Source: Azospirillum oryzae (GTDB lineage Bacteria; Pseudomonadota; Alphaproteobacteria; Azospirillales; Azospirillaceae). Taken from it: a DNA stretch of 64,000 bases. The notes under the pieces are model-generated. The model saw only the letters and a list, made by a program, of their open reading frames with translations. It made no database searches and was not told the origin of the DNA. The translations under genes were made by a program, and so were the position numbers. Shown piece after piece: positions 52,653 through 64,000 of the stretch. Positions within the stretch are counted from its first letter, which is position 1. Each line of letters begins with the position of its first letter. The stretch covers positions 248,001-312,000 of the forward strand of contig NZ_FXAK01000001.1 of the NCBI RefSeq assembly GCF_900177515.1, read 5' to 3'.

Positions 52653-52695
52653 TGTGGTGCGGCTCACATCCCGGAATCCGAGGCTTGGGTAGGGT
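52653..52695 (+). promoter_or_regulatory. Crp-type site 1 and -10 element
   Basis: TGTGGTGCGGCTCACA (52653-52668) has the 5-6-5 dyad of a CRP site. TAGGGT (52690-52695), a -10-like hexamer, is centred 32 bases downstream, which would put the site near -41.5 (class II activation). Sites 2, 3 and 4 show the same geometry. It is about 80 bases upstream of the gene at 52749. Confidence 0.75.
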
Positions 52696-52748: not shown

Positions 52749-53291
52749 ATGATCCGCACCTCCCTGCTGACCGGCTTCGCTTCGCTCGCCCTGTTCGCCG
52801 CCCCGGCGATGGCCCAGAACATCTCCGACATCTCCAACACCGCGGCCGGCATCGGCAACACCGCCAACCAGAGCGCGCTGGTCATGCAGAAGTCGAAGGG
52901 TCCCTTCGCCGGGCCGAACGTCGCCACCGTGTCGAACCTCGCCGCCGGCATCGGCAATACCGCCAACCAGGGCGCCTTCGTGAAACAGCGCAGCGGCGGC
53001 GTGTTCGGCGGCGGCTCGGCGGCGATCATCGGCAACACCGCCGCCGGCATCGGCAACAATGCCGGCCAGATGGCAACGGTGATGCAGCGCAGCGGCGGCC
53101 TGCTGAGCGGCGGCTCGGTCGCCAATGTCGGCAACACGGCGGCCGGCATCGGCAACACCGCCCTGCAGAACGGCACCGTGCTGCAGCGCTCCGGCGGGCT
53201 GCTCGGCCCCTTCAACCACAGCTCCATGCAGAACCTGTCGGCCGGTGTCGGCAACTTTGCCGGCCAGAGCGCCCTGGTCAAGCAGCGCTGA
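52749..53291 (+). CDS. secreted repeat protein with five curlin-like units
   Basis: A 180-residue protein. A Sec signal peptide ends at AMA-Q (about residue 23). The mature part is five imperfect units of about 33 residues built on xxNTAAGIGNTAxQxAxVxQ, then (R/K)SGG and Gly/Ser. The spacing of Asn, Gly and Gln recalls curlin repeats (SxxxxxQxGxxNxAxxxQ), which stack as strand-loop-strand in amyloid fibres, but the match is partial. No Cys is present. No csgEFG-like genes occur in the window. A Crp-type site and a terminator bracket the gene, so it is transcribed alone. Confidence 0.75.
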   Translation: MIRTSLLTGFASLALFAAPAMAQNISDISNTAAGIGNTANQSALVMQKSKGPFAGPNVATVSNLAAGIGNTANQGAFVKQRSGGVFGGGSAAIIGNTAAGIGNNAGQMATVMQRSGGLLSGGSVANVGNTAAGIGNTALQNGTVLQRSGGLLGPFNHSSMQNLSAGVGNFAGQSALVKQR

Positions 53292-53328
53292 CCGCCACTC
53301 CTCCTTCCAGGCTTCCTCCCCAGACCTC

Positions 53329-53361
53329 GCTCCGGCCGGACCCCGGCCGGAGCATTCTTTT
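53329..53361 (+). terminator. Rho-independent terminator
   Basis: GCTCCGGCCGG and CCGGCCGGAGC form a perfect 11-bp stem with a 3-base loop, followed by ATTCTTTT. It separates the first repeat-protein gene from the next Crp-type promoter. Confidence 0.88.
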
Positions 53362-53406
53362 GCCCGCATGGTGCCGCCGGAACCTTCCCGGAAAACGCCC
53401 GCCAAC

Positions 53407-53449
53407 TGTGGGTCAGCTCACAGAAGCAATCCCGGCGCTTCACTAAGCT
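53407..53449 (+). promoter_or_regulatory. Crp-type site 2 and -10 element
   Basis: TGTGGGTCAGCTCACA (53407-53422) shares the TGTGG-N6-TCACA form of site 1. TAAGCT (53444-53449) is centred exactly 32 bases downstream. It is 66 bases before the second repeat-protein operon, directly after the terminator of the first. Confidence 0.75.
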
Positions 53450-53515
53450 TTCTTCAAGAGAACATCGGGGCGCGGAAGCCCGAAGCCTCACCCTCCATCG
53501 AAGGAAACCCCCGCC

Positions 53516-53971
53516 ATGATCCGCAATTTCGCTCTCGGCGCTCTCGCCACCGCCCTGCTCGCCACCCCCGCCCTGGCGCAGCCCAAATCCGCCGCCGGTC
53601 CCGGCCTGCCCGCCATGATGGCCGTTCCCGGTCTGACCAGCACCAACGTCGCCAACGCCACCAATGTCGGCGCCGGCATCGGCAACTCGGCGCAGCAGCA
53701 GGGCGCCGTCTTCCAGGGCGGCGGCAGTGCGCCCATTCGCGGCGTCGGCCCGCTGGTCAGCACCAATGTCGGCACCGCCACCAACGTCGCCGCCGGCATC
53801 GGCAACAGTGCCGGACAGAGGCTGCTCGGCTTCCAGGGCAACGGCGTTCAAGTCGGGCTGAATTTCAGCGGCCGTGGACCTCTGGTCAGCACCAATGTCG
53901 GGGTCGGCACCAACGTCACCGCCGGCCTCGGCAACAGCGCCGGCCAATCGCTGACCGGCCTGCGCCGCTGA
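53516..53971 (+). CDS. secreted repeat protein with three STNVGxxTNVxAGIGNSAxQ units
   Basis: A 151-residue protein, related in design to the 52749 product. A Sec signal peptide ends at ALA-Q (about residue 22). Three units of about 40 residues follow, each with STNV, TNVxAGIGNSAxQ and a Gly-rich linker. The Asn/Gly/Gln ladder again suggests beta-stacked units. Crp-type site 2 precedes it. It is followed at 35 and 31 base gaps by two small secreted-protein genes and then a terminator, so it heads a three-gene operon. The signal sequence of this and the 52749 protein begin alike (MIRN/MIRT), pointing to common origin. Confidence 0.75.
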   Translation: MIRNFALGALATALLATPALAQPKSAAGPGLPAMMAVPGLTSTNVANATNVGAGIGNSAQQQGAVFQGGGSAPIRGVGPLVSTNVGTATNVAAGIGNSAGQRLLGFQGNGVQVGLNFSGRGPLVSTNVGVGTNVTAGLGNSAGQSLTGLRR

Positions 53972-54006
53972 TCCCCCATCCCCACCCCTCGCCCGGGAGG
54001 CCACCG

Positions 54007-54366
54007 ATGCCGAAGCTCCCGCCCAGACTCCCGACAATCCTGGCCATCGCTGCGCCCGTCCTGCTGTTCGCCGGTCTTTCGGCACCGGTGCAGGCCGGCT
54101 CCCTCGCCTGCCAGACGGTCAACGGCAAGACCGTCTGCATGCGGGGATCGGGAACGCTGAGCTGCGTGACGCTCGACGGCCTGACCCGCTGCTCCGCCAC
54201 GCCGTCCGACCCGCGGTCGGAGGTCGTTCCCGACGCGGAGACCCTTCTGCTCCCCCGCCCGGTCGCCCCCGACCTGCGCGGCCTCCTCGACCGCCGGGGC
54301 TTCCCCTTCGGCCATCAGGCCCGCTCCGTCGACCTGGATGACGACGACGACCCCGACATCGACTGA
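54007..54366 (+). CDS. small secreted protein with two C-x8-C units and an acidic tail
   Basis: A 119-residue protein. The signal peptide spans about residues 1-30 (cut near VQA-G). Then come two matching units, CQTVNGKTVC and CVTLDGLTRC, each able to close a small disulfide loop. The last 12 residues are a run of Asp-rich acidic sequence, possibly for calcium or basic partners. CCCGGGAGG precedes the start. It is the middle gene of the operon begun at 53516. The family is not recognised. Confidence 0.7.
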   Translation: MPKLPPRLPTILAIAAPVLLFAGLSAPVQAGSLACQTVNGKTVCMRGSGTLSCVTLDGLTRCSATPSDPRSEVVPDAETLLLPRPVAPDLRGLLDRRGFPFGHQARSVDLDDDDDPDID

Positions 54367-54397
54367 ACCCCACCGCAACCGAACCGGAGACACCGCC

Positions 54398-54658
54398 ATG
54401 TCCCGTCTTTTGACCCTGTCGCTGGCGCTCGCCACCATCGCCGCGGCGCCGGCCTTCGCCGCGACGCCGACCCTGTCCTACACGCGGGCGGCCACGCTCG
54501 GCCCGCTGATCCTCCAACCGGCCCCCGGCATCCCGAAGCCGCCGCCCTGCCTGACCTGCGGCCGGACGACCCTGCCGGGGATCACGCCGGGTCCCACCTT
54601 CGGCGGCGACCGCGCCCTGAACCCGCAGCCTCTGCCACCGAAGGCGATCTTCCGCTGA
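54398..54658 (+). CDS. small secreted protein with CxxC and NPQPLPP motif
   Basis: An 86-residue protein with a Sec signal peptide (cut near AFA-A, about residue 21). The mature part is Pro-rich, with PPPCLTCGRTTLPG and a C-terminal ALNPQPLPPK segment, a motif I recall from other uncharacterised secreted proteins. GGAGACACCGCC precedes the start. It is the last gene of the operon and is followed by a strong terminator. The function is unknown. Confidence 0.65.
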   Translation: MSRLLTLSLALATIAAAPAFAATPTLSYTRAATLGPLILQPAPGIPKPPPCLTCGRTTLPGITPGPTFGGDRALNPQPLPPKAIFR

Positions 54659-54678
54659 ATTCGAACCTTCATGTCCAA

Positions 54679-54708
54679 GGGCGACCGGCCAGCGCCGGCC
54701 GCCCTTTT
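54679..54708 (+). terminator. Rho-independent terminator
   Basis: GGGCGACCGGC and GCCGGCCGCCC form a GC-rich stem with a short loop, followed by TTTT. It ends the three-gene secreted-protein operon just before the Crp-type regulator gene. Confidence 0.8.
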
Positions 54709-54860
54709 CGTGTCCGCCCCGCGCACGGACGGCGCAGAAGCGCCAACGACGGCGTACCGCCTTTGACGGAGTAAGACGGCCCGGTTGCCGGCGTACCATT
54801 CCCTGGCTGGAGAAGCGGCCCGCGATTTCAGCCACGATGTCAGCCAGAAGGGTGGCGGCC

Positions 54861-55571
54861 ATGACTGCGATACGGATCAACTTCGACAAGGATCTCGTCC
54901 TCGCCGGGCATTTCCTGCTCAAGCATCTGGAGCGGGAGGAACGGCAGCGTCTGGCCAACAGCGCCCGGCTGTCCCACCACCCGCGCGGCGCCATGATCTT
55001 CCAGAAGGGCGATCCGGGCGACAGCATGATGGCGGTCATCCGCGGCCGGGTGAAGATCTGCTGCCATTCGATGGACGGCAAGGAGCTGGTGCTGAGCATC
55101 ATCAACAAGGGCGGCCTGTTCGGCGAGATCGCGCTGCTGGACGGCGAGCCGCGCACCGCCGACGCGGTTGCGCTGGAGGAGACCGACCTGCTGGTCCTCG
55201 ACCGGTCGCAACTGATGCCGGTGCTGACCGCAAGGCCGGATCTCGCCTTCCGCATCATCGGCGTGCTGTGCAAGCGGCTGCGCACGACCAGCGAGCATCT
55301 GGAGGACACGCTGTTCCTCGAAGCGTCCTCCCGCTTCGCCCGCGCGCTGAAACGGCTGGGCGATGCCTTCGGCAAGCCGGGACCGCAGGGGCTGCGGCTG
55401 GACATCAAGTTGTCGCAGCAGCAGCTCGGCTGCCTCGTCGGCGTCTCGCGGGAGAGCGTCAACAAGCTGCTGAACGAATGGCAGCGCGCCGGCGTGATCG
55501 AGATGGATGCCGGCCATATCGTCATCCGCGATAGCCGCGCGCTGGACGAGATCGGCGACTCCTGCGGCTGA
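54861..55571 (+). CDS. Crp/Fnr-family transcriptional regulator, cyclic-nucleotide-binding type
   Basis: A 236-residue regulator. Residues 20-125 form the cyclic-nucleotide-binding barrel; the phosphate-binding cassette FGEIALLDGEPRTA (87-100) keeps the Glu and the Arg98-Thr99 pair that contact the phosphate in CRP. The dimer helix follows, then the winged HTH with recognition segment SRESVNK (196-202), close to SRETVGR of E. coli CRP, including the Arg-Glu that reads TGTGA. There is no N-terminal Cys cluster as in FNR. The start at 54861 has AAGGGTGG upstream; 54837 is the alternative. Its nearby TGTG-N8-CACA-type sites and the linked cyclase make it the probable local cAMP sensor. Confidence 0.9.
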   Translation: MTAIRINFDKDLVLAGHFLLKHLEREERQRLANSARLSHHPRGAMIFQKGDPGDSMMAVIRGRVKICCHSMDGKELVLSIINKGGLFGEIALLDGEPRTADAVALEETDLLVLDRSQLMPVLTARPDLAFRIIGVLCKRLRTTSEHLEDTLFLEASSRFARALKRLGDAFGKPGPQGLRLDIKLSQQQLGCLVGVSRESVNKLLNEWQRAGVIEMDAGHIVIRDSRALDEIGDSCG

Positions 55572-55592
55572 GACGCCCCATCGACGCTGTTC

Positions 55593-55635
55593 TGTGAGCC
55601 GCGCCACAGCGCCCGCATCGGCCTCCGCCTATTCT
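55593..55635 (+). promoter_or_regulatory. Crp-type site 3 and -10 element
   Basis: TGTGAGCCGCGCCACA (55593-55608) has the TGTGA-N6-CCACA dyad, and TATTCT (55630-55635) is centred 32 bases downstream, as at sites 1 and 2. It lies 64 bases after the site edge to the gene at 55672, and directly behind the regulator gene. Confidence 0.75.
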
Positions 55636-55671
55636 GCTCCCCACACCCGGCCGCCAGCCCCGAGGGAGCCC

Positions 55672-56376
55672 ATGACCATGTCGCCCCGTACAGCTTTTCT
55701 TCCCACGGTCGCCGCCCTGTTGCTGACCGCCGGGACGGCCGCAGCCCAGGTCACCGGCGGCATCGCCTTTCCACCCGGCCCGATCCCCGGCGCCGCGATG
55801 GCGCAGGCCTTCTCCCAGGCGCCGCGCCTGCCGGTGTCGGTGAACCCGACACCCCGCGGCGCGCCCCCCGGCGCGATGGTGACCAACCCGTCGGTCCGCC
55901 GGTCTTCCGTGAACCAGCAGGCGATCACCCGCATCCGCGGCGACGCCGGCTATCTCGCCGGCTTCAACAAGGGACAACCGCTGGCCGCCAGCCGCCAGCC
56001 GCCGGTGCAGCCCGACCCGGGCTTCACCTTCATCGACGCGCCCTTCATCGTGAACAACTTCAACAGCGCGCTGAACTTCGCCTTCGGCGACGGCAACATC
56101 AGCCAGCAGCAGCTCGGCGACGGCAGCGCCGGCCCGGTGGAGACCGCCGCCCCCGCCCCGCCTGCGCCCGAACCGGCCCCGGCGCCCGATCCGGCCGCCC
56201 AGCCCGCCGGCCCCTCGACGTTGGACCTGCTGATGCGCACGGCCGGGCCGCTGCCGCATCTGCCCACGGCGCTGGCCAATGGCGGTGTGCAGTTCAACAA
56301 CGTGAACACCGTGACCAACACCGCGGTCGGCACGCGCAACCGCGCGACGCAGACGACCGTCACCATCCAGCGCTGA
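55672..56376 (+). CDS. secreted Asn/Pro-rich protein with curlin-like C-terminus
   Basis: A 234-residue protein with a signal peptide (cut near AAA-Q, about residue 25). The middle has a segment FIVNNFNSALNFAFGDGNIS followed by QQQ, then a Pro/Ala-rich spacer (APAPPAPEPAPAPDP). The end, VQFNNVNTVTNTAVGTRNRA, then TQTTVTIQR, has the Asn/Thr/Gln ladder of curlin-type repeats. It is preceded by Crp-type site 3. It is convergent with the caspase-like gene with 9 bases between the stops. The Met at 55672 follows GAGGGAGCC. Confidence 0.7.
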   Translation: MTMSPRTAFLPTVAALLLTAGTAAAQVTGGIAFPPGPIPGAAMAQAFSQAPRLPVSVNPTPRGAPPGAMVTNPSVRRSSVNQQAITRIRGDAGYLAGFNKGQPLAASRQPPVQPDPGFTFIDAPFIVNNFNSALNFAFGDGNISQQQLGDGSAGPVETAAPAPPAPEPAPAPDPAAQPAGPSTLDLLMRTAGPLPHLPTALANGGVQFNNVNTVTNTAVGTRNRATQTTVTIQR

Positions 56377-56385
56377 GCAGGATCG

Positions 56386-59157
56386 TCAGTTCACCTCGCG
56401 CGCCACCCGGAAGCCGTTGGTGAGATAGCGCACGTCGATGTCGTAGCTGTTGCGCACCGTGCCGTTGATCGCCTCCAGCCGGTCGCGCCAGGAGCCGCCG
56501 CGCAGCACCCGCTTGCGGCAATCGCCGCGGGTCCAGGCGCTGCCGTCGTCCGGCGCGCCGTGATAGTTCCGGTTCCAGCAATCCTCGACCCATTCCGCCA
56601 CGCTGCCGTTCATGTCGTGCAGGCCGAAAGGGTTCGCCTTATAGCTGCCGGCCGCGATCGGGGTCAGGTGTTCGTGCGCGCCGCCGCAATCGTCGCAGTC
56701 GGCGTGGACGCCGCCTTCCCCGCCCCACCAGTAGGGTGCCGTGGTACCGGCACGCGCGGCAAATTCCCATTCCGCCTCGCTCGGCAGGCGATAGCGCTGT
56801 CCGGTCTTGCGGCTGAGCCATGCCACATAGGCCTGGGCATCCTGCCAATGCAGATTATGGACCGGCGTGCCGTCGGCGGGGTTGACCATGCGGGGCATGC
56901 CGGTGCAGCCGCCCTCCTGGATGCAGGCGCGCCATTCGCCGACCGTCACCTCATACATGCCGAGCGCGAAGGGCTTGCCGATGGTGACGCGGTGGACCGG
57001 TCGCTCCGACGGGTCGCCCCTGTCGTTCCCCATCATGAAGTTGCCGGCCGGCACCCGCACCAGCACCGGACAGGTCGGACAATCCTGGAAGCTGTTGCCA
57101 TTGCCATGGTTGCGCGCCGTCCCGTTGCCCTGTGCCGGTGCAGGAGCCGGCGCCGTAGCCGCCGCCACCTGCGGCTCGGCCTTGGAGGGCTCGGGCGGTG
57201 ACGGCTGCGGTGCGGCCTCCACCACCGGCGGTGCCGCCGGGGGTGTCGGCAGTGGTTCGTGCTTCAACAGGCCCGCGGCGACGAAACCCTGGGTGCCGTC
57301 CTCCAGAGCGACCCGGTACCACCCTCCCTCCGGCACGCGGCCCAGCACCTGCACCGCCGATCCGCGCGCCACGCGGCCGACCCGCGCGCCACTGTTGGCC
57401 GGCGCCGCCCGCAGCACGCTGTCCACCGTGGCGGTGTAGCGTCCGGGTTCCGCCGGCTCCAGGCCGGGACCCAATACCGCCTCCTGTTTGGTCTCCGTCT
57501 TAGGCGGCTCTTCCGCCCGCTTGCCGGCGAGCGTCAGCGTTTCCAGCTGGCGGCGGGCAATGGGGGCGTAGCCGCTGCCGCCGAACAGCTGCAGGAATGC
57601 CTGATAATCACCGGGCTCCTTGCTGGACTGGATGCGCTTCCACAGGCTGTCCTCCAACTCCGCCACCGGCGGTATGCCCGGCGGGGCGATCTCCACGCTG
57701 ACGCTCGCCGTTGCGGAGCCGCCGCGCCCGTCATCGACGCTGTAGCGCAGGGCTCCGGCCGGTCCGGGGGCCGCGGCCTCCGGGTCGAAGGTCAGCGCGG
57801 TCAGCGCCTGGACGGTCAGCCGGTCGCCCGGCTTCACCACCGCCGCACCGTCATGGACGCTGCCGCGCTCCGGCACGGCGGTGACGGTGACGGTCAGCGG
57901 ATCGCCGTCCGGATCGGCCGGGGCATCGATCCCCATCGGGTTGCCGGCGACGCGCAGCTTGCGTTCCGCCACCACGGCCGGCGGCTGGTTGCTCGGCTTG
58001 ATGGTGACCGGGATGGTGCCGGTGACCATGCCGCCGCGGCCGTCGGCAACCAGGAACTCGAAGGCGCCGGCCTCGCCGCGGAAGCTGCCGTCGGGCTTGA
58101 AGCTGGTGGCCGCCAGTTGCTCCACCGTCAGATAGTCGCCGATCAGCACGCTGCGCTCGCCGACGCGGACGGTGCCGCCGCGCGGCAGGCCGGTGATGCG
58201 GGCGTACATCTGGTCGTCGTCGGGGTCGGTCGGCTTGCCGGCCCCCAGCGGCTCCGGCCCGGCGCGGTCCAGCACGGTCAGCACCCGCAACTCGCCCAGC
58301 ACCGGCGGCCGGTTGGGCGGGCGCGGGTTGAAGTAGAAGGGCGTGGCGCCGAGCGAGCCGTAGACGAAGGGCTCCTGCCGGCCGTTGGTGGCCTGCTTCA
58401 CCGTATCGCGCACATTGCGGAAGAACAGGCTCAGCTCCAGCCCCGGCGCCTGGAGATGCTGGAGCAGCGCCGCGCTGAAGGGGCTGTGGTCGCCGGTGCC
58501 GTCCTCCGCAAGCTGGTCGGCGCGGGTCGCCATCGCCACCAGCGTGTCGCTCGGCGTGTCTTCGACGCTGCCGAAGCCGGGATGGGCCTGATTGCGGTTT
58601 GACCCGCTGCGGGTCAGGCGGTCGACGAAGGGATTGTTGCGGCAGGCGTCGAGGATGAGGATGCCGAGCTTGCGCGCCCCGGCCAGCTCCCCCATCGGCA
58701 GGTTCAGCGGAATCGCCTCATAGACCAGATCGCGTTCGCGCTCCAACTGGGCGTCGGCGGGCAGCAGGTAATTGACGCCGTTCACCTGGATGCCGTGCCC
58801 GGCATAGAAGATCACCGCCACGTCGGCCTGCGAGGCCTTGATGCCGAACCGGCGCAGGGCGACGGCGAAGCCGCGGGCGTCCAGGTCGTACTCCTCGTCC
58901 ACCGTGAAGTTCAGCGCCCGCAGCGCCTCGCCGATGGCACGGGCGTCGTTGCTCGGATTCAGCAGTTCCGGCGCGTTGCGGTATTTGCTGACCCCGATCA
59001 CCAGCGCAAGCCGGCTTTCCGCCGCGGCGCCGGTACCCGGGCCTTGCCCGCCGCCAGCCGAACGGGCCGCGTGCGCAAAGCCGCCCGGCACCGCGACCAG
59101 CAGCAGGAGCAGCAGCACCGCGAAAAGCATCCGGCAGGGTCCGACCGGTCCCATCAT
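56386..59157 (-). CDS. secreted caspase-like (peptidase C14) protein with Ig-like repeats, SH3 and formylglycine-enzyme-fold domain
   Basis: A 923-residue exported protein. A signal segment (about residues 1-31) is followed by a caspase domain (about 45-290) with catalytic His121 in YAGHGIQV and Cys172 in ILDACRNNPF, so the protease dyad is present. Next come two cadherin/Ig-like repeats (about 300-500; ADPDGDPLTVTVTAVPERGS), an SH3-like domain (about 575-625), a Pro/Ala linker, and a C-terminal FGE-sulfatase-type domain (FQDCPTCPVLVRVPAGNFMM to the end). The FGE Cys pair after RGGS is absent (GGSWRDRL), so the domain is probably a non-catalytic ligand- or protein-binding fold. It follows the cyclase operon on the same strand after 226 bases. 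Confidence 0.88.
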   Translation of the reverse strand: MMGPVGPCRMLFAVLLLLLLVAVPGGFAHAARSAGGGQGPGTGAAAESRLALVIGVSKYRNAPELLNPSNDARAIGEALRALNFTVDEEYDLDARGFAVALRRFGIKASQADVAVIFYAGHGIQVNGVNYLLPADAQLERERDLVYEAIPLNLPMGELAGARKLGILILDACRNNPFVDRLTRSGSNRNQAHPGFGSVEDTPSDTLVAMATRADQLAEDGTGDHSPFSAALLQHLQAPGLELSLFFRNVRDTVKQATNGRQEPFVYGSLGATPFYFNPRPPNRPPVLGELRVLTVLDRAGPEPLGAGKPTDPDDDQMYARITGLPRGGTVRVGERSVLIGDYLTVEQLAATSFKPDGSFRGEAGAFEFLVADGRGGMVTGTIPVTIKPSNQPPAVVAERKLRVAGNPMGIDAPADPDGDPLTVTVTAVPERGSVHDGAAVVKPGDRLTVQALTALTFDPEAAAPGPAGALRYSVDDGRGGSATASVSVEIAPPGIPPVAELEDSLWKRIQSSKEPGDYQAFLQLFGGSGYAPIARRQLETLTLAGKRAEEPPKTETKQEAVLGPGLEPAEPGRYTATVDSVLRAAPANSGARVGRVARGSAVQVLGRVPEGGWYRVALEDGTQGFVAAGLLKHEPLPTPPAAPPVVEAAPQPSPPEPSKAEPQVAAATAPAPAPAQGNGTARNHGNGNSFQDCPTCPVLVRVPAGNFMMGNDRGDPSERPVHRVTIGKPFALGMYEVTVGEWRACIQEGGCTGMPRMVNPADGTPVHNLHWQDAQAYVAWLSRKTGQRYRLPSEAEWEFAARAGTTAPYWWGGEGGVHADCDDCGGAHEHLTPIAAGSYKANPFGLHDMNGSVAEWVEDCWNRNYHGAPDDGSAWTRGDCRKRVLRGGSWRDRLEAINGTVRNSYDIDVRYLTNGFRVAREVN

Positions 59158-59383: not shown

Positions 59384-61267
59384 TCACCCGCAGACGTCGG
59401 CGTTCTCATCGTCGATCAGCAACCATATCCGCACCGTTCGGGTCTTTCCCTTCAGCGCCACCTCCCCCACCGGCAGTGCCTCGCAGCGGTCGCATACGGC
59501 CTGCCAGGTCGGATCGCCGACGATGATGCGGGCATGGCGGGAGGACCGGCCGTCCACCATCTTGCCGTACGCCTCCAGCCGGGCGGCGGTGTTGGCGGTA
59601 TCGCCCAGCAGCGAATATTCGCTGTGCCGCAGCCCGCCCAGGCTGCCGGCCACCAGGGGACCGGTGTGCAGGCCGACGCGGATGCCGACCGGCGGCAGCC
59701 CCTCCGCCTGCCAGCGGCGGTTGAGCGCCTCCAGCTCCCGTCCCATCTGTAGGGCGCAGCGGACGGCGCGGGCCGCGTCGGCGTCGATCTGCGCCTGCGT
59801 ACTGCGGGCGACCGGCGCGCCGAAGACCGCCAGGATCGCATCGCCGACGAAGCGCAGCACCACCCCGTCGTTGGCGGTGACGATGCGCACCATGGCATCC
59901 AAATAGCCCTCCAGCCAGCGGATCAGCGGCTCCGGCTCCAGCGCCTCGCAGATGGTGGTGAAGCCTTCGATGTCGGAGAACAGCACGGTGGCGGTCAGCT
60001 GCTGCGGGCGCGGGCGGTTGCCGGCCATGAAGGTCGCGCGCTCCCGCCAGATCTCCTCCGCCACCGGCTGGGAGACATGGTTGGCGAACAGCTGCATCAT
60101 GACGCGCCGGTCGGCCCGCTCGCGCAGCGACATCTGCACGGTCATGGCGGCGATGCCGGCACCCCAGGCCAGCGACGGCGCCACCAGCGGCACCAGCGGC
60201 CCGCCTGCGGCGAACAGCGCCGCCGAACCGGCCCAGGCCCCCGCCGGAACCAGCAGCCCCGCCGCCGCCAGCAGCCCCAGCGGCAGCCCGGCCATCGCCA
60301 GCGCCACACCGGCCGCCGCCATCAGCAGCGCCAGCGCCGCCTCCCCGGCGACGGGAAGGCGCGGGCTGCTCCGCCCGTCCAGCAGTTGGGCCAGCACATG
60401 CGCCTCGATCTCCACGCCCGGCGTCGAGGCACCGGCGGACGACAACGGCGTGCGGTGCTGGTCGATGCCGGCCAGCGCCGTGCCCACCAGCACCGTCCGC
60501 CCGGTCAGCCAGCTCGTCGGCAGAACGGCGACCGTCTCGGCGGGATAGATCGGGAACGGGGTGGTGGCGCCGTCGGGCCGGCCGTGCCAGTCGATGCGGA
60601 ACGGCTCCGCCGGAACCCCGGACGCGCCGCCGAGGCGGGCGAGCTGCACCGGCAGGCTGGGCGTGCCGTCGCCGCCGAAGGGAACGTGCCAGCGCACGGC
60701 GGCGTCGAGCCTGTCCTTCGCCAGATTGGCATGGCCGCGCGGCAGCCCGTCGGTGAACTCGCCGAGGAAGCGGCGCTGCCGCTCGGTCAGCGGCGTCTGG
60801 TCCAGTGCGGTGATCGCCACGACCGGGACCGACGCGCCCAGCATGGCGCGGCGCAGCCGCTCGTCCAAGGCCGGCAAGGTCGGCTGGTCGAACAGCACGT
60901 CGATGCCGATGGCGCGGACCCGGGCCGCCGCCAGCACGCCGATGATGTCGGCCAGCATGCCGCGATCCACCGGCGACCGGCAGGCCAGCCCGGCGAAGCT
61001 GTCCTCCCCGAACAGCACCAGCGCGATGCCCGGATGCTGCGGCTGGATCGGAGCGGCGGTGGCGATCAGCCGGTCGCCCAGGCTCTCGTCGGCGGTGCGC
61101 AGCGGCGGCACCAGCCGTACGGCGGCGAGCGCCAGCAGGGCGCTGCCCAGCACGATGGCAAGGGCCAGCCAGCGGTGCCGCCCGGGGGCCGGGCGGTCCC
61201 GCACCGCCGGCTCGGCGATAAGGGAAGCCTGCGGACTTGACCGGGGAGTCGCCGGCGCGCCGTCCAT
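59384..61267 (-). CDS. CHASE2-domain class III adenylate/guanylate cyclase
   Basis: A 627-residue membrane enzyme. One N-terminal helix (31-53), a periplasmic CHASE2 sensor (about 60-300, with [15 protein letters not shown]), three further helices (308-388), then the class III cyclase domain (about 420-605). Metal-binding Asp432 (FSDIEGFT) and Asp476 ([11 protein letters not shown]) and the transition-state Asn559/Arg563 (NTAAR) are present, so it should be active. The base-specifying Lys position is Arg472 (LRFVGD) and the second position is Ser552. It is the last gene of the ompA-like operon (7 bases after the DUF4384 gene), controlled by Crp-type site 4. Confidence 0.9.
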
Positions 61268-61274
61268 GCGCCCC

Positions 61275-62402
61275 TCACCGGACCTTCAGGAACAGTTGGG
61301 CGGAGGCCACCTCGGTCTCGCGCAGGCGCGACACCGCGCGGTCGAGCTGGACGGCGGCCTCCTCGGACAGTGGGCGGAAGGCGGCGGCGCGGCCGGGCAT
61401 CTCGTCGTCCAGGTTGCGGCTGGCGGCGATGCAGCGCACCTCCAGATCGGCAGGCCCCTCGCCGGCGCGCAGCGGCATGCGGTCGCCCGACAGGCTGAGC
61501 GGCACATTGCCCGCCACCCGGGCGCTCATGGCGGCACCGGCCGGAAAGATCGGAATCAACTGGGCGCGCGCATTGCGCAGATAGCAGTAGAGATGGGCGT
61601 CGCGGTCGGTCTGGACCAGCAGGCGGATGTCCTCGCCCGGCCGGTAGGCGGGTCCGCCGCGATCCGCCGAGAGAAAGAGGTCGAGCGGCACCATCGCGTC
61701 GCGCAGGGCCGCCATCGCCGCGGCGATCTGCCCGGCGCAGCCGGCCGAGGCCATGCCCACCGCCAGCGCCGCTCCGCCCGCCGCTCCGACCATGCGGACA
61801 TGCAGCGTGCCGACCGGGGTTCCATCCGGCCGCAGCGCGCCGATGTCGCTCCCGTCCGCCAGCGGCAACGCCTGCGGCCAGGGCGCCGAACCGTCGTCCG
61901 CCCAGCTGACCGCCGCACGCTCTCCACTCACCATGTCCTGCAAGGTCAGGCGGTCCAGCCCCGGCTCCGCCGGGCGGCGCAGCGCAGGCGGGCTTCCCGC
62001 CTTGACGCACTGGACGCCGGAGACCGACGGGTCGATGGTCAGCGCCCGCTCCAGCGCCGCATCCAGCGGATTCCCCATGGCGCGCGCCGCACCCAGGTCG
62101 CTCTGCATGAAGCGGTCGTCACCGGGGCCGGCACGGGCCGAAACCGCGCTGTCGGTCATGTCGCCGGGCACCCCGTCATAGGGGCCGCGCAGCCGCAGCA
62201 GCCGGCCGTTGGCGAACAGCAGCGTGGCATTCGCCCCATCGGGGAGCCGCAAGGCCTGCCCGTCGGCGACGAGCTGGCCCTGAATGAAGCCGGGCGCGCT
62301 GGACGACACGACCACGGCCTCCGCCCGCACCGCGGCGGCATGGCCGCAGCCCAGCGCCAGCATGGCGGCGCCGAATGCATGGGAAAGGGATCGCTTGAAC
62401 AT
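61275..62402 (-). CDS. secreted DUF4384-domain protein
   Basis: A 375-residue exported protein. The start at 62402 (MFKRSLSHAFGAAMLALGCG) is preferred over a GTG nine bases earlier, as AAGGTG then lies at good spacing. Residues about 255-345 contain FLSADRGGPAYRPGEDIRLLVQ and HLYCYLRNARAQLIPIFPAG, a block I associate with DUF4384, which is often found with caspase-like and OmpA-type proteins. The N-terminal half (VVVSSSAPGFIQGQLVADGQ) resembles a FecR-like/beta-rich domain. It belongs to the operon of ompA-like, small protein, this gene and the cyclase. A second DUF4384 gene starts off the right edge. Confidence 0.8.
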   Translation of the reverse strand: MFKRSLSHAFGAAMLALGCGHAAAVRAEAVVVSSSAPGFIQGQLVADGQALRLPDGANATLLFANGRLLRLRGPYDGVPGDMTDSAVSARAGPGDDRFMQSDLGAARAMGNPLDAALERALTIDPSVSGVQCVKAGSPPALRRPAEPGLDRLTLQDMVSGERAAVSWADDGSAPWPQALPLADGSDIGALRPDGTPVGTLHVRMVGAAGGAALAVGMASAGCAGQIAAAMAALRDAMVPLDLFLSADRGGPAYRPGEDIRLLVQTDRDAHLYCYLRNARAQLIPIFPAGAAMSARVAGNVPLSLSGDRMPLRAGEGPADLEVRCIAASRNLDDEMPGRAAAFRPLSEEAAVQLDRAVSRLRETEVASAQLFLKVR

Positions 62403-62443
62403 GATGGTCACCTTTTGGTTGGGAGGCTTGGTTGGGAGGCGGA

Positions 62444-62788
62444 TCAGTCGCGGCTGCGCTCTCTTCCATCATCGGGGGAGAGCAGGCAGGCGGTGCGCGA
62501 CTGCGTCACCACCGACACCGCCCCGTCCGTCGCGCCGTTGCGGCGGAAGCGCAGCCCGTTCAACTGGCTGGCGATGCTGAGCGACACGACGGCGAGGTCC
62601 GCTTCGTCGATGATCTTGTGGCCGTCCTGCCAGCATTGGACGCGGACCTTTTTGCCGGCGGGGGCGACATCGACGCCGCCGCTCGCCGCTCCGGAGCTTT
62701 CGCCATCCTTCTTGCGGACCACCGTGGCGTCGGCCCCCTGGAAGACTGTCAAACCGAGACAGACGGCGAGGAGCAAGGCGTGTTTCAT
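62444..62788 (-). CDS. small secreted protein, unknown
   Basis: A 114-residue protein with a Sec signal (MKHALLLAVCLGLTVFQGAD). The mature core KVRVQCWQDGHKIIDEADLA, then SQLNGLRFRR and SVVTQSRTACLL, has two Cys that could form one disulfide. GGAGGGGAA precedes the start. It lies 27 bases after the OmpA-like gene and 41 bases before the DUF4384 gene. I do not recognise the family; its conserved position suggests a small envelope partner. Confidence 0.65.
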   Translation of the reverse strand: MKHALLLAVCLGLTVFQGADATVVRKKDGESSGAASGGVDVAPAGKKVRVQCWQDGHKIIDEADLAVVSLSIASQLNGLRFRRNGATDGAVSVVTQSRTACLLSPDDGRERSRD

Positions 62789-62815: not shown

Positions 62816-63595
62816 TCAATGGGTCGGCTTGAATTCGACGCGCCGGTTGCGGCCGTCATAGGGGTTGGCGGCGAGCGGTTCGCTCGGCCCCTTGCCGTCC
62901 ACGGTGATGCGCTTGGGATCGATCTGGTGGACGCGGACGAGATACTCGCCCACCGACACCGCGCGGCGCTGCGACAACAGCATGTTGTAGGCAAGGCTGC
63001 CGCTGGCGTCGGTGTGGCCCTCCACCGTCAGCCCCAGGTTCGGATCCTCCTTCATCAGCGCCCCGACGGCGTCGATGTAGGAGGCGGACTCCGCCGGGAT
63101 CTCGGCCGAATTGAGGGCGAAGTTGATACGGAAACCGAAAGCCTGCGGTGCCGCTTCCTGTTCCGCAGTGGCCGGCGGTTCGGCAGCGGCCTGCGGCGCG
63201 GCGGCGGCTTCCATCCGCGCCTCCTGCCGGCGCTGCCTGTGTGCGGGACGGCTCGGTGTCGGCTGCGGAGCGGGCTGAGCGATCGGCTGCATCTCCGCCT
63301 GGGGGGCCGGCTGCGGCGCCGGCATGGGCGCCGTGCCGTAATTGATCTCGTCGATGGGGCGCGGGCGCTTGGCGGCGGCACCGGCCGCGCCGCCGATGAT
63401 CTCGATGCTGCGGGTGCGGATCTTCGGTTCCGGCGCCACCACCTCGCGCAGTTCCTCCACGCTGGGCGGCCGGTCGAACATCATCACCTTCGACTGGCCG
63501 GAGCCCTCCACCGTCTGGGCGGACGCCGAACCGGCCCAGACGGCCAGCATCGGCAAAGTGGCGGCCACAACATGGGACAAAGTGGATTTGGTCAT
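62816..63595 (-). CDS. OmpA-family outer-membrane/periplasmic protein
   Basis: A 259-residue protein. The signal peptide ends near SASA-Q (about residue 26), then a Pro/Ala/Gln-rich linker of about 120 residues, then an OmpA_C domain (about 150-259) with GLTVEGHTDASGSLAYNMLL and the closing NRRVEFKP; the Asp and Arg that bind peptidoglycan diaminopimelate are in place. There is no beta-barrel, so it is a periplasmic peptidoglycan-anchored protein. The start at 63595 has GGAG upstream. It heads an operon with the small secreted, DUF4384 and cyclase genes, and Crp-type site 4 lies about 70 bases upstream. Confidence 0.85.
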   Translation of the reverse strand: MTKSTLSHVVAATLPMLAVWAGSASAQTVEGSGQSKVMMFDRPPSVEELREVVAPEPKIRTRSIEIIGGAAGAAAKRPRPIDEINYGTAPMPAPQPAPQAEMQPIAQPAPQPTPSRPAHRQRRQEARMEAAAAPQAAAEPPATAEQEAAPQAFGFRINFALNSAEIPAESASYIDAVGALMKEDPNLGLTVEGHTDASGSLAYNMLLSQRRAVSVGEYLVRVHQIDPKRITVDGKGPSEPLAANPYDGRNRRVEFKPTH

Positions 63596-63636
63596 TTGAG
63601 GCTCCATGGGCGGGAGAAGGAACGGCGTTGCCCCTG

Positions 63637-63679
63637 GTTCTAGCGCCACACCCATCCCCGCGCTGTGAGCCGGCCAACA
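63637..63679 (-). promoter_or_regulatory. Crp-type site 4 and -10 element
   Basis: On the minus strand TGTTGGCCGGCTCACA (63679-63664) keeps the 5-6-5 dyad with a TCACA half. TAGAAC (63642-63637) is centred 32 bases downstream, exactly as at sites 1-3. It serves the OmpA-like/DUF4384/cyclase operon. Confidence 0.7.
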
Positions 63680-63710: not shown

Positions 63711-64000
63711 TCACTCCCCCTGCGCCAGCGTGCCGGGCAGCACCTTCACCGTCAGCCGCTTGGCGCGGGCGTCGCTTCCCTTCGCCGTGGCGAAGGCGTT
63801 GATGACGTCGTCCAGGGCGGCGCCTGGAATGGGCTGCAGATCCTCGCTCTTGAACGCCTCCGGGATCCGCACGCCGATCTCGTCGTGGGACAGCACGCAG
63901 GCCACCGTCTCCTCCGCTCCCGGCCGGTCCATGCGCAGGTTGAAGGGCTTCTGCACGCCGGGCGGGACTTCCACCTGCCGACCGGCCTCGACGAAGGCGT
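63711..64000 (-). CDS. DUF4384-type protein, C-terminal fragment
   Basis: A frame open at the right edge, running into the window from outside and ending at 63711. Visible are AFVEAGRQVEVPPGVQKPF, AEETVACVLSHDEIGVRIPE, and LTVKVLPGTLAQGE. The order and hydrophobic pattern match the C-terminal part of the 61275 DUF4384 protein (ADLEVRCIAASRNLDDEMPG to QLFLKVR). No start is visible; a GTG at 63974 is not needed. It is thus a second DUF4384 protein beside the same cluster. Confidence 0.65.
   Translation of the reverse strand, partial: AFVEAGRQVEVPPGVQKPFNLRMDRPGAEETVACVLSHDEIGVRIPEAFKSEDLQPIPGAALDDVINAFATAKGSDARAKRLTVKVLPGTLAQGE

Follow-up and report, generated by a model that had tools for sequence, protein, structure and literature searches.

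A conserved Azospirillum gene block with secreted ladder-repeat proteins and a divergent CsgG-family lipoprotein

Among the closest described systems in which a CsgG-family protein serves secreted repeat proteins are curli, with CsgA/CsgB and CsgG, and the holdfast anchor HfaABD of Caulobacter, for which passages of the literature state that surface HfaA and HfaD depend on HfaB (PMC6707917). Regulation by a CRP-family protein has a parallel in the same order, where CgrA is described, in the excerpted text, as binding TGTGA-N6-TCACA (PMC4681086). Here we describe a gene block of Azospirillum oryzae (assembly GCF_900177515.1) that lies in a 64,000-nt stretch of contig NZ_FXAK01000001.1, positions 248,001-312,000 of the forward strand; this whole stretch is called the window, and its coordinates are used below. 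The conserved block comprises A-F, which include the secreted repeat proteins, together with a CRP-family regulator, an orthocaspase, a CHASE2 nucleotide cyclase, an OmpA-family protein and a CsgG/HfaB-like lipoprotein. The block is real, widespread in Azospirillum and a variation on the CsgG-family secretion theme; by the tests run it is neither curli nor Hfa. On balance we favour the view that it constitutes a self-contained third type of CsgG-family export system, controlled by a cyclic nucleotide and dedicated to beta-repeat surface fibres or adhesins.

Protein A (180 residues; 52749..53291, + strand) contains five AG-x-GN-x-A-x-Q units at a spacing of exactly 33 residues, and protein B (151 residues; 53516..53971, +) contains three, spaced by 40 and 43 residues, which confirms the five and three AGIGN(T/S)AxQ-type units that a first-pass annotation of this DNA had noticed. 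A six-frame scan of the window gives eight matches to this core motif, all of them in A or B, and shuffles that kept composition reached the observed number of units in 0 of 20,000 trials for A and again 0 of 20,000 for B. A wider ladder, N1-x6-N8-x3-Q12-x5-Q18, is present five times in A, twice in B and once at the C-terminus of F (234 residues; 55672..56376, +), where it covers residues 216-233; F had been put forward as a third protein with repeats, and this one unit is all that it has. Profile comparison shows A and B to be homologous (hhalign 98.0%), and signal peptides were found in both by inspection. Each unit of A is followed by Q-[KR], and the same basic ending recurs in most of these repeat proteins. 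A GG[VI]-type stretch (VQSGGIPL, LMTGGIPL, GGVKIGG, VTGGIAF) stands right after the signal peptide in many of these secreted proteins, including F (55747-55770), the repeat proteins of loci L055 and L056, the small proteins of L097, L099 and L100, and L070 8566-8958; it is possibly a shared export signal.

The partial resemblance to curlins that had been claimed for these proteins is borne out by the Asn/Gln ladder, yet the ladder is a separate one. A, B and F have no copy of the curlin ladder (positions 1, 7, 12 and 18), of which this genome's own two curlin proteins have 11 and 10; those two in turn have no copy of the N1-N8-Q12-Q18 ladder. A profile search against curlin families, suggested in the same annotation, gave no match of A, B or F to Curlin_rpt (PF07012) up to E 1, while the genome's own curlins do match. 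When A was compared with the curlins of the genus, the hhalign probability was 3.2% and the alignment was limited to the signal peptide. Scans of A, B, C, D and F against Pfam, NCBIfam and PHROGs yielded no convincing match, only weak chance-like rows, and neither A nor B convincingly matched PDB sequences, FapC included. As judged from sequence, the resemblance of A, B and F to curlin is real but partial, and family membership is not supported.

The genome nevertheless has true curli genes: a locus on contig C2 encodes two proteins with curlin repeats alongside CsgG (E 2.3e-56) and a protein that by eye resembles CsgF. Full Azospirillum curli loci are found at L006 5620-9506 and L053 2104-7142, with curlin proteins of up to 445 residues, and the L053 locus holds an additional small protein with curlin repeats. 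Azospirillum is not mentioned in the portion of a curli survey that was available as text (PMC3521004), nor are curli mentioned in the available part of a study on A. brasilense cysts (PMC6159551).

The putative exporter is encoded at the edge of the window. That no CsgE/F/G-like exporter seemed to be present there is true only because the window end cuts a CsgG/HfaB-type gene, the C-terminal part of which occupies 63711..64000 on the - strand and which continues past the window end. Given this partner in the same block and the curli locus on contig C2, the label "without Csg genes" was wrong for the genome. The lipoprotein has 519 residues, a lipobox recognised by eye and the domains CsgG, PG_binding_1 and DUF4384. 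An alignment of 11 such lipoproteins matched an alignment of eight CsgG/HfaB proteins over residues 16-258 (hhalign 98.5%, E 1.4e-15), and an unrelated control, run against F, gave 0.2%. The aligned region includes stretches matching the parts of CsgG expected to hold membrane hairpins, the placement of which within CsgG we presume here. Pfam CsgG scores the homologue of genome G003 at 23.9 bits, above the cut-off of 20.8. These comparisons identify the lipoprotein as a divergent CsgG-superfamily member with a homologous CsgG domain; by analogy, it is likely to act as the outer-membrane gate for the repeat proteins. As a separate observation on HfaB-like genes, one genome of another family (G096; L140) has five of them, three within 10 kb.

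Searches with an alignment of A detected A-type repeats in 34 of 45 Azospirillum genomes and in none of 37 genomes from the rest of the order; the relatives recovered by pattern scan, seven loci, all come from Azospirillum. In co-occurrence counts that ignore phylogeny, the full-length lipoprotein is present in 33 of the 34 repeat-bearing genomes and in 0 of the 11 repeat-negative ones (Fisher 1e-9), or in 1 of 11 if a 35% identical homologue in the repeat-negative G024 is counted (Fisher 4e-8). The sole repeat-bearing exception, G006, has a match limited to the DUF4384 part. True CsgG (E under 1e-50), present in 9/34 repeat-bearing and 1/11 negative genomes (Fisher 0.41), was ruled out as a general partner. 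The distance between lipoprotein and repeats, with coordinates read by eye, is ~20 kb or less in 16 genomes, and in 16 of 33 genomes the two are unlinked, on another contig or at least 170 kb apart; the fragmented G030 is undecided. It is the lipoprotein, not true CsgG, that tracks the repeats across the 45 genomes, unlinked cases included. In three unlinked genomes (L160-L162) the CRP-caspase-CHASE2-DUF4384-OmpA-lipoprotein module is intact without adjoining repeats. Elsewhere, A-type genes form inverted copies 16-20 kb apart around the module (L050/L051 in G003, L052 in G013, L059/L060 in G035); the G013 contig ends within such copies, so that recombination or assembly collapse is possible there.

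Beyond the genus, the lipoprotein was searched for across the class in 385 genomes; at E 1e-10, 17 matched, counting the present one, several of them through the DUF4384 part only, and neighbourhoods were compared at eight of these loci. A genome of another family (G432) keeps the CRP, caspase, CHASE2, OmpA and DUF4399 genes and a relative of F, with TGTG-N8-CACA sites. Different small secreted repeat proteins adjoin the lipoprotein at L097, L099 and L100, and one of 855 residues does so at L102; at L103 and L104 no repeat protein was noticed beside it. The profile of B found this genome only among the 385, and its match to the repeat proteins of L097, L099 and L100 (hhalign 85.9%, E 5e-6) is only suggestive, because the alignment takes in signal peptide and low-complexity sequence.

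A shared operator motif connects these genes. The window has exactly three copies of the CRP-type sequence TGTG-N8-CACA, against 0.43 expected, and 0 of 100 shuffles reached three. The sites, to which no strand is assigned, are TGTGGTGCGGCTCACA (52653..52668), 96 bp before A and conserved in orthologues, TGTGGGTCAGCTCACA (53407..53422), 109 bp before B, and TGTGAGCCGCGCCACA (55593..55608), 79 bp before F. The whole genome has 30 sites (reversed control, 25), five of which stand before A, B and F, at the head of the exporter operon and before an unlinked A paralogue. Across loci, 51 of 54 repeat genes carry the motif within 250 bp upstream, which does not amount to 54 independent events because the loci are related. 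This count began with 56 distinct repeat open reading frames, from which one site-less true curlin and one frame with <150 bp upstream and no site were set aside, and it takes in the unlinked repeat genes of genomes where the module sits alone. The regulator of the block (54837..55571, +; the start may be 54861) has cNMP_binding and HTH_Crp_2 domains and a 75% identical orthologue in G016, whereas its identity to other CRP paralogues is ~40% or less; CgrA was ruled out as the regulator on these grounds. Several almost perfect palindromes with the pattern TGTGGG(A/G)-x4-CCCACA, seen on one replicon (G000 contig C3 at 6314, 276058, 280648, 293066 and 546996), are probably the operator of another regulator.

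A beta-stacked fibre had been proposed for these proteins, and single-chain structure prediction agrees with the stacking in the case of A. The AlphaFold model, built from eight A sequences (the alignments of A and B are shallow), has a predicted local distance difference test score (pLDDT) of 78.9, a predicted TM-score (pTM) of 0.74 and two strands of ~12 residues in each unit. When this model was compared with the PDB by Foldseek, the FapC fibril ranked first (E 4.7e-4) and the CsgA fibril second (E 0.022). Matches in BFVD were weak or of low TM-score, three entries named "Curlin associated" among them. An NVAAG-type motif is, we assume, common to A-type repeats and FapC. The model supports A as a two-strand-per-unit solenoid with amyloid subunits among its nearest folds, and goes no further than that.

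In the mechanism that we propose, A, B and probably F would cross the inner membrane by means of their signal peptides and the outer membrane through, or together with, the neighbouring CsgG/HfaB-type lipoprotein, which would be anchored in the cell wall through its PG_binding_1 domain, with the OmpA protein assisting. Outside the cell, the repeats would stack as a two-strand solenoid and serve either as fibre subunits or as a coat or anchor resembling HfaA/HfaD. Control would lie with the CHASE2 cyclase, which may sense an envelope signal and produce a cyclic nucleotide; binding of this nucleotide by the CRP-family protein would activate the exporter operon and the genes of A, B and F through the TGTG-N8-CACA operators, and cyclase and regulator would thereby form a local second-messenger loop. 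For the orthocaspase family, cleavage behind positively charged residues is reported in the portion of the source available (PMC6426788), and we would guess that the Q-[KR] after each A unit is a candidate site. A bolder version, which we regard as doubtful, is that of a third CsgG-type amyloid export lineage in Alphaproteobacteria, in which a wall-tethered CsgG-DUF4384 pore exports lineage-specific beta-repeats, all members of the dispersed regulon are turned on by the CHASE2 cyclase/CRP switch, and Q-[KR] is where the exported orthocaspase would trim the fibre or set it free.

Several observations weigh against the export system that we favour. The fibre part of the earlier proposal is weakened by the TM-scores of the A model to the FapC and CsgA fibrils, which are low (0.12-0.28), and by the poor model of B (pLDDT 46.3). 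With a second aligner (VIA), CsgA reached Z 12.0 at a root-mean-square deviation of 7.9 and SufBD Z 12.1 at 2.5; SufBD, an ordinary beta-helix, matches A as well as CsgA does. For the lipoprotein of this genome, the Pfam CsgG score is 18.2 bits, below the cut-off of 20.8, and the NCBIfam HfaB score is 27.2 bits, below the cut-off of 300, and a genome search with HfaB at E 1e-5 did not list it. Outside the genus, eight genomes of the order have the full-length lipoprotein but no A-type repeats, and, since the genomes of the genus are related, the Fisher test does not count independent events. Three repeat genes, all B-type, lack the operator, and the core motif of CRP sites is used by further CRP proteins as well, CgrA among them.

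Other explanations draw on the same evidence. A and B could instead be additional clients of the ordinary curli system, exported by the CsgG of contig C2 as minor curli components: this genome has a csg locus, and in G028 a true csg operon lies no more than ~10 kb from A- and B-type genes; but 25 of the 34 repeat-bearing Azospirillum genomes are without true CsgG at E under 1e-50, TGTG-N8-CACA is missing from the csg locus of this genome and upstream of the curlin gene L053:4091, and the ladders of A, B and F and of curlin differ completely. We regard this explanation as highly improbable. Somewhat less remote, although still unlikely in our judgement, is that the proteins anchor or coat exopolysaccharide, as HfaA/HfaD do with the holdfast, and form no fibres of their own: HfaABD provides the precedent, the lipoprotein matches the CsgG and HfaB models weakly and the joint CsgG/HfaB profile strongly, and small units with few repeats fit a coat, but the regular 33-residue solenoid of A would fit polymerisation too.

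The lipoprotein might also lack a pore altogether and act as a wall-bound periplasmic scaffold, with A and B remaining periplasmic for envelope integrity or signalling. Neither PG_binding_1 nor DUF4384 is an exporter domain, and the Pfam CsgG match is limited to profile positions 92-201 of 210; on the other hand, the profile-profile alignment spans residues 16-258 with the hairpin stretches, and distant relatives of the lipoprotein have other secreted repeat proteins as partners. We give this scaffold a small chance, and retain the CsgG-family export system as the preferred reading.

The remaining genes of the block complete its layout. Between B and the regulator lie C (54007..54366, +), a secreted Cys-containing protein of 119 residues with TVNGKTVC-type motifs, and D (54398..54658, +), a secreted Pro-rich protein of 86 residues. 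C is kept in 7/7 Azospirillum loci compared, D has a tblastn match in 6/7, and F is kept in 6 of 7, the seventh contig stopping short of its position. On the - strand follow an exported orthocaspase-like protein (56386..59157) with caspase, Ig-like, SH3 and FGE-sulfatase domains and, by inspection, a signal peptide and His/Cys motifs; a CHASE2 sensor with a class III nucleotide cyclase (59384..61267); a DUF4384 secreted protein (61275..62411); Z114 (62444..62788), a secreted protein of 114 residues that neighbourhood comparison shows to be conserved in the block; and an OmpA-family protein (62816..63655; profile match 67.3 bits). Past the lipoprotein, beyond the window edge, come two DUF4399 proteins and then a small secreted protein.

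CsgG together with DUF4384 was not found in the open-access literature searched, and among the matches listed for literature combining at least two of DUF4384, caspase, CHASE2 and CsgG, none had CsgG plus DUF4384 or CHASE2; as far as these searches of open-access literature reach, the system is not in print. If our interpretation is true, the export of stacked-beta proteins by the CsgG family extends beyond curli and holdfast anchors and brings a built-in second-messenger switch and a protease with it; plant-associated Azospirillum gains a testable surface system, orthocaspases, a family with few known bacterial roles, are tied to a surface structure, and unlinked gene sets would be linked to an exporter through one operator motif.

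Altogether, the system of these soil bacteria appears to be related to the machinery of curli and of the holdfast anchor, and to have had no name so far. With curli it shares secreted Asn/Gln-ladder repeats and a partner with a CsgG-homologous domain, and for A, though hardly for B, the model predicts units of the strand-turn-strand kind; it differs in its ladder (N1-N8-Q12-Q18 instead of 1-7-12-18) with no Curlin_rpt match, in the PG_binding_1 and DUF4384 domains added to the partner, and in its CRP/cyclase control. The likeness to Fap lies in the structure, the FapC fibril 9u4u being the top Foldseek PDB match of the A model, whereas the PDB sequence searches with A and B gave no FapC match; this comparison covers FapC alone. 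HfaABD, which the block resembles in its CsgG-family component, has an outer-membrane protein that, according to passages of PMC6707917, is needed for surface repeat proteins, but the Azospirillum lipoprotein is far below the HfaB cut-off, repeats and neighbours are different, and the Azospirillum block has a cyclase, a CRP protein and an orthocaspase. The CgrA/cyclic GMP cyst switch of Rhodospirillum centenum resembles the block in using a CRP-family protein that binds TGTGA-N6-TCACA, as the excerpts of PMC4681086 describe, whereas the block CRP is ~40% identical to its nearest paralogues (four genomes) and has its own 75% orthologue.

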